Part shown: piece after piece, positions 47,110 through 54,642 of the stretch
How positions within the stretch are numbered: position 1 is the stretch's first letter
Layout of the letters: the number at the start of each line of letters is the position of its first letter
NCBI RefSeq assembly: GCF_015097055.1
Contig: NZ_AP023366.1
Location: 2,312,001 to 2,376,000 of the forward strand
Direction of reading: 5' to 3'
Source: Effusibacillus dendaii
Lineage (GTDB): Bacteria; Bacillota; Bacilli; Tumebacillales; Effusibacillaceae
Length of the DNA stretch: 64,000 bases
Notes under the pieces: model-generated
Databases searched by the model: none
The model's input: the letters and a program-made list of their open reading frames with translations, nothing else
Told to the model about the DNA's origin: nothing
Translations under genes and position numbers: made by a program

Positions 47110-48420
47110 CGTAGTTGCTGGATGTAGCCCAAGCGAAGCGCGGGAGCATTTTCCTAGCGATCGCTTTAGCAATTGAATGCCAGTTAGAGATGTTTAGGAC
47201 CTTGGGCTGTCTTTGGGAAAATAGCCGCAGGTGTCTACCAAGGGAATGTTCCGTTACCTCCCGCAGAGGGAGGCATGTGCACCGATGGCCCCCGGTGTAT
47301 TCCAATAGCTCGCAAGGCTGTCGTTCATGGGTTTCCCAGGGACATCCCAAGGTCGTAGGCATCTTCATTCCAACCGAAGGAGGTGATTGCCATGCCCTCT
47401 CCCCTGTTTGTCGGAATTGATGTAGGCAGCGAAGCCATTCGGTTTGCTGTTTGACCCGGGACGATGAGAAACGAGCTGTTAGCCCTTTCACCGTCACCAA
47501 CAATCGCCCTGGAATCCTGGAGTTTCAGGATCGCATCACCAAGCTGGTGCAGAAACACCACGCGGAAGAAGTTCTCTTTGGCCTTGAGCACACGGGCTGT
47601 TATTTGACCCATGCCGCCATGTACATCCAACGTCACTTTGATTTCGGCGTCCGCCGTAAGAATGTGTACCTCTTCAATCCCAGTCTTATCGTCGACTTCC
47701 TTGTGAAGCACGGCAAGAACCGGTTCGACGATCCTGAGGCGGTCGCCCGTTCCTTCCAAAAGGCTGCCCGCTCTTCGTATCGATTGGCGCAAGTGATGGC
47801 GGACTCTGTCAATCTCGCTATGGCTTTCAGCATCCGCGTGATTCGCACAGTACAGGAGCAGCTGAAGGCGCTTCGCAAAGGGATTGAAGATTACTTGGCG
47901 ACGATTCCGCAAACGCTGGATTCCATCCCCGGCATCGGTCCCATCTTTGCTTCCGGAATAGTGGCCGAACTGGATGTACGCCAGTTCAAAAGCCATAAGG
48001 AAGCAGCGAAATACGCAGGGCTGGCTTGGACCGTTCACCAGTCCGGGAAATTTACAGCAAACCGAACCCGGCTGATTCTTTCCGGCAACCGCTATCTCAA
48101 GTACTACATGATCGAGGCGGCAAACAGCGTTCGGGTGCACGACCCTGTTTTTGCCGAGTACTACGCCAAGAAGAAAGCGGAGCCAAAAGAGTTTGCCGAG
48201 GGACGAGTCCTTGCGCTCACAGCCCGTAAACTGATGAGATTGGTCTTTTATCTGCTGAAGACCAATCGACTTTACGTGCCCGAAGGAGGGATCCGACAAC
48301 ACGCGTAGACATACCAAAGATCTGCAAGGACACCCGTTCCTTGAATAAAATGGCAATAACAGGAATTCAAGGTGGGGTGGGCTTAGTTTGGTGTTGCCTT
48401 CTTTAGCTGCACCTCCCCCA
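47110..48420 (+). mobile_element. IS110-family insertion sequence with long 5' non-coding leader
   Basis: A decayed DEDD-type transposase (47392..48308) is preceded by about 280 nt without a gene (47110..47391) that contains several hairpins, for example ACCTCCC/GGGAGG at 47257..47272. In IS110 elements this left non-coding stretch encodes the bridge RNA that pairs with target and donor DNA. Ends are not defined, because this family lacks clear inverted repeats. Confidence 0.72.
47392..48308 (+). pseudogene. IS110-family transposase with frameshift
   Basis: ATG at 47392 behind AGGAGGTGATTGCC opens MPSPLFVGIDVGSEA, with the first catalytic Asp, but the frame ends at 47454. The rest continues one frame over from TRDDEKRAVSPFTVTNNRPG. 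One lost base near 47434 (GCCATTCGG where GCCAATTCGG would restore the frame) explains this. The C-terminal half is intact, with IPGIGPIFASGIVAELD and the serine region LILSGNRYLKYYMIEAANSV. The protein is likely inactive unless frameshifting occurs. Confidence 0.85.
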
Positions 48421-53411: not shown

Positions 53412-53912
53412 CTATTCGATAAATGTATCGGCCAACAATTGATGTACCTGCAGGTAGGTTTCCTCGTCAGTAGGGCGATCTCTCTGGTTTTTGCCAACGT
53501 AGGCATATACAATTTTACCGTCCGCTGAGATCAAAAACATACTGGGATGGGCAATCCGAAACGCATCAATATGAATGGGGTTATACACATCAAACGATAT
53601 GATTACCGATCGGTCAGCTTCAACCAGGAACGGGAACGGCAACGGATGTTGGGATAGCCATTGGCGCGCCGATTCGATTTTTTGTCCGGCAATGACGAGA
53701 ATGGAAACACCGAGTTCTTGATACTTTGCGGCATGGTCACGCAACTGCGCGAGTTGTTTGCGGCAATTCGGTCACCAGGTCCCCCGCAGGAAATAAAGCA
53801 GAACCGGTCGACCGCGAAACCGTTCTAACCGATATGTTTCTCCGTCCACTCCGGGCAATGTGAAAAGGGGCGCTATTGAGCCGGGACGCAGCCCTTTATC
53901 TGCTTTTGGCAT
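53412..53912 (-). CDS. Candidate selenoprotein: peroxiredoxin-like (AhpC/TSA) with in-frame TGA at the catalytic site
   Basis: Reading from ATG at 53912 (ribosome site AAGAGGTGACAGA) the frame is open to TAG at 53412 apart from a single TGA at 53772..53774, codon 47. It would encode about 166 residues with a thioredoxin-fold peroxiredoxin pattern: [41 protein letters not shown], then [19 protein letters not shown]. In relatives the TGA position is the peroxidatic cysteine of WCPxC, so decoding as selenocysteine gives UxxC. A hairpin CAACT CGCGC AGTTG (53742..53756) starts 15 nt after the TGA and fits a bacterial SECIS. A simple nonsense mutation is the alternative. Confidence 0.65.
53742..53756 (-). 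promoter_or_regulatory. SECIS-like hairpin downstream of the in-frame TGA
   Basis: On the minus strand CAACT / AGTTG form a 5-bp stem with loop CGCGC. The loop begins about 20 nt after the TGA and has G at its second position, which meets the published bacterial SECIS spacing and loop rules as I recall them. No folding program was run. Confidence 0.45.
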
Positions 53913-54034
53913 TCTGTCACCTCTTTTTAAAGTTTGACATTTTGGCAATATTGAATATATTTAAACTGACAGAGGACCCTGTCTGCCCCGAACGCTCAAG
54001 TTCCACTTGGGCCATTGCGGAGGGGCAATCGGGT

Positions 54035-54642
54035 CTAATTCATTTTCTTTTTTGTGTACTCCGGTGCTATTTTATGTTGGCTTGGTACAAATAACCAATG
54101 TCTATATGGGTGTAACCAACGATCATGAATGTTCTTTGTACCTGCAGAGATTCCAATATTAAAATTTGGGTATATTTCTCGAATACGTTTATTGATATGC
54201 TTATATAACTTTTCCTTTGCAATGGTTCGTTTTCCATACGGCAAACCAAATGCGTACTTAAAAAATTGATAATACAATCGTAAAAACGTGCTATCACGCT
54301 GGTCTTTCGTTAAATTAATTACTCGTCGATAGTTGTGTGTAAACATAACGCGCATTTTTACAATATCCGACTGGATAAGATAAAGAATAGATCTATCAGC
54401 GCAATGTATTTGTCAAGATAGTTGGTTGTTACGCATTGCCACTTTACTTCGTTAAACAAATTTAACTCGTTTTTCTTTAACGTAATCTGATCAACAACAT
54501 ATTTAAAATCAGTTGAACAAACGAGTGCTCTCCCATAAAAGTTTCCGTAATAACGGCCTTCCTTAGCTGATTCATCCATGTATATAATGTATTCCAGAAC
54601 AATTACCTCTCTTAATAAAAACCCAAATTTTAGCAGTCCCAA
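54035..54642 (-). pseudogene. DUF3800-like protein with a frameshift
   Basis: Two consecutive frames together resemble a DUF3800 protein: EYIIYMDESAKEGRYYGNFY then KYIALIDLFF in the first, and KMRVMFTHNYRRVINLTKDQ with IGISAGTKNIHDRW in the second. One missing base near 54377 (TTTATCTTATC where TTTGATCTTATC would keep the frame) joins them as DLFFDLIQSD. DUF3800 proteins are often linked to mobile elements or defence. The start is unclear; a ribosome site GAGAGG lies before a CTG/ATG region near 54600. Confidence 0.75.

Follow-up and report, generated by a model that had tools for sequence, protein, structure and literature searches.

A probable UxxC selenoprotein of peroxiredoxin-like/ResA-like type in Effusibacillus dendaii, and its relatives fused to chemoreceptor signalling domains

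The window analyzed here, a stretch of 64,000 nucleotides from the genome of Effusibacillus dendaii, carries on its minus strand a frame of 166 codons that opens with ATG at 53912 and closes with TAG at 53412. Its sole internal TGA is codon 47, in the context GTW-U-PNC, and no other lesion is found along its length; read on the plus strand, the same interval is closed by several stops. A first-pass annotation of this DNA, which left the strand unstated, had described 166 codons with one TGA at codon 47 (GTW-TGA-PNC) behind a good ribosome site, and all of this is borne out. The features of the locus are as follows.

53412..53912, minus strand: very probable selenoprotein gene for a 166-aa, probably cytosolic redoxin of AhpC/TSA fold, with UGA47 as the predicted selenocysteine codon and a TAG stop
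53772..53774, minus strand: TGA codon 47, predicted selenocysteine that opens U47-P-N-C50 (from the frame, the TGA/Cys counts and alignment to PrxQ and ResA)
53917..53923, minus strand: ribosome binding site GAGGTGA, 4 bases before the ATG (from the sequence)
53742..53756, minus strand: stem CAACT-CGCGC-AGTTG named in the first-pass annotation, loop 20 nt past the UGA, at the site where the nine other TGA genes have their stem, and weak here
53737..53752, minus strand: energetically best hairpin of SECIS-like form, UCGCGC-AGUU-GCGUGA, with the loop 25 nt past the UGA (from folding)
54035-54642, minus strand: pair of short ORFs next to each other, upstream of the gene and lacking a Pfam match, perhaps one broken gene

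A mechanical ORF list shows the gene only as a TTG-started fragment of 110 aa (53744..53412), and ordinary annotation would therefore probably miss it or trim it to that fragment. On one side a DEAD-box helicase gene points towards it, and on the other a gene for a YchF-type GTPase lies past the two short ORFs; from this layout the gene looks like a single-gene unit. About 5 kb away, an ORF at 47451-48308 (plus strand) carries a Transposase_20 (IS116/IS110/IS902) domain.

Decoding UGA as selenocysteine depends on dedicated machinery, and the first-pass annotation had held that its proposal would fall if the genome lacked selB and tRNA-Sec. We examined the E. dendaii genome as one contig of 3,454,394 bases and found both, together with selA and selD. 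The tRNA-Sec scores 66.4 bits and is the sole one of 18 matches above the cut-off; ARAGORN likewise reports a tRNA-SeC, with anticodon tca. SelB scores 400.9 bits (cut-off 242), SelA 609.9 bits (cut-off 268, locus L054) and SelD 421.6 bits (cut-off 125), with selD beside selA. Because the selD gene has an in-frame TGA of its own, SelD of this genome is probably itself a selenoprotein, and a second AhpC/TSA-type redoxin gene of the same genome is likely to encode another. The selB gene adjoins an ORF that we recognized by eye as thioredoxin-reductase-like. The two further TGA-containing genes are located as follows.

G000:C1:1295746-1296675, minus strand: SelD with in-frame TGA (L055; from a profile match)
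L045 563-1219, G000:C1 near 1306600, minus strand: second AhpC/TSA-type redoxin gene, TGA in GSW-U-PYC

The predicted protein scores 98 bits in the AhpC-TSA family PF00578 (cut-off 26), and Redoxin is matched as well. Its AlphaFold2 model has a mean pLDDT of 87 and finds Bcp4 as the top fold match in the PDB, followed by ResA chains, with AhpE lower; a helix at residues 48-66 begins right after Sec47 in the model. Neither a signal peptide nor a TM-like stretch is apparent in the protein. None of the NCBIfam models attains its cut-off, the best being the SelL-related NF040769, which reaches 65.1 bits against the required 120. SelL carries a two-Sec motif, unlike the UxxC of the window protein.

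The first-pass annotation had called the gene peroxiredoxin-like, with TGA at the catalytic cysteine. The family assignment stands, whereas the position needs correction. In a profile alignment of the subfamily (alignment A3, described below), U47 lies opposite the Thr of the TxxC motif of PrxQ, and it is C50 that lies opposite the peroxidatic Cys. Against ResA, the motif falls on the CxxC (GTWCPHCKK in the ResA variant 3c71, GTWUPNCRK here), and the subfamily has an invariant Pro where both PrxQ chains shown carry an Arg. We take that Arg to be the catalytic Arg of peroxiredoxins, and the invariant Pro presumably corresponds to the cis-Pro of thioredoxin. The selenocysteine would thus replace the first Cys of a CxxC of thioredoxin/ResA type and not the peroxidatic one, and 'peroxiredoxin-like / ResA-like' is therefore the better name.

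Two established assignments can be weighed against this alignment. A true selenoperoxiredoxin of TxxU type, that is, a peroxidase with Sec as its peroxidatic residue, would agree with the match to PF00578, the shared AhpC/TSA fold and the PrxQ/Bcp chains among the best matches, and a peroxide could still be the substrate of the selenol. This alternative is unlikely, given that the pattern PxxxTxxU would put the selenocysteine where C50 is found, that Sec stands for the Thr of TxxC, that Pro replaces the PrxQ Arg and that the motif aligns with ResA chains; the alignment to PrxQ and ResA led us to reject a peroxidatic role for Sec47. The likeness to ResA lies in the place of the CxxC and in the fold match. 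The window protein differs from ResA in having Sec for the first Cys and no hydrophobic N-terminus that could serve as an anchor, and it scores 64.3 bits against the NCBIfam cut-off of 170.

A better fit is the class of Prx-like thiol:disulfide oxidoreductase selenoproteins (PF00578; UxxC or UxxU) tabulated in the accessible parts of PMC13188914 and PMC9312934. The window gene has the marks of its UxxC type: PF00578, a TGA at the start of UxxC with Cys homologues, and selenocysteine machinery in the genome. Compared with those proteins, as far as the accessible parts of the two papers describe them, it shares the Pfam family, the UxxC motif and the presence of Cys forms among relatives; it differs in falling below all NCBIfam cut-offs, in having no signal peptide and in having many relatives fused to a chemoreceptor (MCP) domain. 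The window protein is very probably a member of an already listed kind, within a subfamily outside the reach of the NCBIfam models.

To place the gene among its relatives, we searched 398 genomes drawn from its class and found 11 members, the window gene included, at E <= 1e-34, with the next matches from 5e-20; the distant AhpC/ResA-like matches under this gap (5e-20 and weaker) were not counted as members. An alignment of the 11 (A2), scanned against genome contigs, gave 30 loci. Dropped before counting were six duplicates with identical 144-aa stretches (L079, L082, L083, L088, L090, L103), the remnants L106 and L108, both from SelA-positive genomes, and a weak unrelated match (L107). L063 was kept in the Cys count despite a frameshift near its C-terminus, and L099, from a metagenome assembly, was counted as TGA, with a frame that ends at 177 aa and a partial SelA match that has two internal stops. 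Alignment A3 and the tree hold 27 of the 32 rows; L063, L087, L092, L095 and L096 are counted but absent there.

Whether the TGA alternates only with cysteine codons was a check proposed in the first-pass annotation, and it does. Counting the window gene, there are 32 distinct members; 10 of them have TGA at the catalytic position, the remaining 22 have a Cys codon (TGC or TGT), and no other codon occurs. The TGA forms are the window gene, Tumebacillus avium (L017), L061 (G244), L065 (G254), Bacillus sp. ISL-37 (L066/L088), Bacillus sp. ISL-55 (L105), Bacillus sp. cl95 (L091), Cytobacillus oceanisediminis (L081), Mesobacillus selenatarsenatis (L097) and a metagenome-assembled Bacillus (L099). 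Members with Cys come from, among others, Brevibacillus, Paenibacillus, T. permanentifrigoris, three Chloroflexi and one Edaphobacter assembly. If U is written as C, neither position 47 nor position 50 varies over the 27 rows of A3.

The subfamily is rare, since 398 genomes drawn from the phylum yielded just two members at E <= 1e-30, the window gene and one in G103. The window gene is without a close relative (best identity 44-46%), and its three congeners have SelA and no orthologue of it at E <= 1e-18. The tree requires the codon to have switched between TGA and Cys no fewer than three times, and on it the window gene groups with the TGA form L061 with support of 97/94, both on long branches.

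SelA exceeds its cut-off in every one of the 10 genomes with TGA and in 4 of the 22 with Cys (Fisher P 1.6e-5, no correction being made for relatedness), where some absences come from draft genomes and completeness is not stated for 24 of the SelA-tested genomes. The four SelA-positive Cys genomes are those of T. permanentifrigoris and the three Chloroflexi; the Brevibacillus and Paenibacillus genomes examined have the Cys form, none of them with SelA above the cut-off. As judged from the sequences, the evidence for selenocysteine that goes beyond chance is comparative, namely a codon that is only ever TGA or Cys and a TGA that goes with SelA. These two patterns also bear on the idea that no selenoprotein is made, the UGA either being read through by a near-cognate tRNA or terminating translation to leave a short or regulated product. 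The TTG-started C-terminal ORF of 110 aa is what such an account could point to, and it is hardly credible against a TGA that is replaced in other members by Cys, never by Trp or Arg, and that follows SelA.

We next consider the hairpin that would direct selenocysteine insertion. The 5-bp stem with a 5-nt loop that the first-pass annotation had placed 15 nt past the TGA is present as described, but CAACT-CGCGC-AGTTG is probably not the stem formed in the window mRNA: its energy is -2.8 kcal/mol and its pairing probability 0.0, and an overlapping 6-bp hairpin of -8.2 kcal/mol is favoured. In its accessible part, PMC13188914 describes a bacterial SECIS model with a stem of 4-16 bp, a loop of 3-9 nt that has G within its first two positions, and a distance of 16-37 nt. 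The hairpin UCGCGC-AGUU-GCGUGA fits that model, with a G among the first two loop bases and its loop at 25 nt, but 8% of synonymous draws do as well. With synonymous-codon nulls of P = 0.147 for the CAACT-CGCGC-AGTTG stem and P = 0.08 for the best hairpin of bacterial SECIS type, the hairpin of this one gene is not beyond chance.

More can be said of the TGA genes together, which have in common a stem 15 nt past the TGA that spans codons Q-L-x-x-L. Its core is fully Watson-Crick paired (5/5) in 10/10 TGA genes and 0/22 Cys genes. The absence from the Cys genes is weak evidence, because the amino acids alone forbid the full stem in 20 of the 22 (null P 0.000); of the two others, L062 attains 5/5 if G-U pairs are allowed. 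Over nine distinct rows, both partners have changed in three of the seven pairs, and shifting the partner by 1-3 columns lowers the paired cells from 94% to 10-40%; one of five measures, that of further pair types, did not beat shuffles (322 of 500). With amino acids fixed, the null P for the stem, at a site picked after viewing the data, is 0.004 for L103 (= T. avium), 0.008 for L061 and 0.01-0.065 for seven rows of the Bacillaceae clade. Six 50-nt folds have energy z-scores between -1.5 and +0.5, which is unremarkable, and a search of the whole genome with Rfam SECIS_1 gave no match, but none of its controls matched either. As an argument, the hairpin is consistent but weak in the window and fair in the subfamily.

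A further alternative is a pseudogene, in which a Cys codon has mutated to TGA and decay is beginning. The first-pass annotation had named decay in relatives as a sign against its proposal, and some is found: L106 of Virgibacillus oceani is a frameshifted remnant of this redoxin gene, L108 of Mesobacillus subterraneus a C-terminal one, and the Cys relative L063 has its late frameshift. The two short ORFs upstream may likewise be a broken gene. Of the columns of A3, 20 do not vary among the 26 rows besides the window gene, which itself keeps 18 of them (5/5 before the TGA, 12/14 after it, and the catalytic column); the two that are altered in it are both Asp columns. Against decay stand the absence of any second lesion in the 166 codons, the grouping with L061 on the tree, the selenocysteine machinery of the genome and the confinement of TGA to SelA-positive genomes. 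Furthermore, in five TGA genes from the Bacillaceae clade the codons before and after the TGA alike are under purifying selection, with a pooled dN/dS, over ten non-independent pairs, of 0.077 before and 0.057 after it. A pseudogene is accordingly improbable.

The UxxC selenoprotein proposed in the first-pass annotation is thus supported by the machinery genes, by the alternation of TGA with Cys and by the stem in all ten TGA genes, though the last is weak in the window, and the gene very probably encodes a genuine selenoprotein. From what was computed, that is, the frame, the machinery genes, the Cys/TGA alternation, the co-occurrence with SelA and the predicted fold, we infer selenocysteine insertion and a redox cycle with its substrate and reductant. 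With a probability of roughly 93%, the gene encodes a single-domain, probably cytosolic Prx-like thiol:disulfide oxidoreductase in which UGA47 is decoded via SelB and a hairpin and Sec47 and Cys50 form the redox-cycling pair. SelB and Sec-tRNA would decode UGA47 with the help of the hairpin just downstream, placing the Sec47-x-x-Cys50 pair at the start of the long helix, where ResA and thioredoxin have their CxxC. Most likely Sec47 would then attack an oxidized substrate, either a disulfide or a peroxide; Cys50 would resolve the intermediate as a selenenylsulfide, which a thioredoxin-type system would re-reduce.

Finally, we looked at the domain architecture of the relatives. Proteins of 441-448 aa in which a chemoreceptor signalling domain comes after the redoxin are encoded by 7 of the 10 TGA genes and by 14 of the 22 with Cys. 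Pfam MCPsignal (PF00015, cut-off 34.6 bits) was run on two of the 21 fusions and scored 99.0 bits in P0002 (TGA) and 98.5 bits in P0003 (Cys); the remaining fusions were recognized by the hairpin-tip motif or by alignment. The window protein is not a fusion, as it ends at 166 aa and Pfam finds no MCP domain in it. The TGA fusions, which occur in Tumebacillus, Bacillus, Cytobacillus and Mesobacillus, are predicted to be candidate soluble selenocysteine chemoreceptors.

L017 607-1953, minus strand; L065 1498-2832; L066 622-1956, minus strand: TGA fusions, candidate selenocysteine chemoreceptors
L081, L091, L097 and L105, each from 2998: TGA fusions, candidate selenocysteine chemoreceptors

No strongly hydrophobic segment was seen in the 14 of the 21 fusions checked, where the highest 19-residue mean was 1.37. 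The model of the T. avium fusion shows the redoxin and two long helices (167-303 and 309-447) with a mean pLDDT of 75, and its pTM of 0.37 leaves the relative placing of these parts uncertain. With L099 left out, one state change on the tree accounts for fused and stand-alone forms. CheW was found in 17 of 17 genomes tested, with or without a fusion, and the search is for this reason not discriminating.

We consider it likely that the window gene is the stand-alone version of a selenocysteine redoxin whose Bacillaceae and Tumebacillus relatives act as soluble receptors of MCP type that have Sec in their sensor domain, replaced by Cys in the Brevibacillus and Paenibacillus genomes examined. In such a receptor the UxxC redoxin would be oxidized by a partner or an oxidant, and this would switch the cytosolic MCP hairpin and through it CheA/CheW. 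There is a precedent for cysteine-based sensing of this kind: as described in the accessible part of PMC6715182, TlpD of Helicobacter pylori is a cytosolic chemoreceptor that senses an oxidant via a Cys in a zinc site. This makes the chemoreceptor idea plausible, not proven. The likeness concerns the fused relatives only, as soluble MCPs that would sense oxidants via a reactive residue; judging by the same part of that paper, TlpD differs in using a zinc-site Cys where the fusions have a redoxin with Sec or Cys, and the window protein has no MCP domain at all.

Among the literature matches listed, most subscription journals being outside the scope of the search, no selenoprotein with a methyl-accepting or chemoreceptor domain appeared, and the word 'chemotaxis' is absent from the main text, as accessible, of PMC13188914, PMC9312934, PMC5029168 (ISME J 2016 survey) and PMC12013277 (deep-Sep). 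The fused relatives are for us a more interesting result than the window gene, which reveals a Sec/Cys redoxin subfamily where the same catalytic unit stands alone or fronts a soluble chemoreceptor-like protein. The subfamily makes the use of selenocysteine in signalling, beyond catalysis, testable in Bacillota, with natural Cys versions for comparison. A further redoxin-like frame, in genome G032 of the same class (L053 604-1224, plus strand), has a TGA in the context HLG-U-PIC and is possibly another UxxC selenoprotein.
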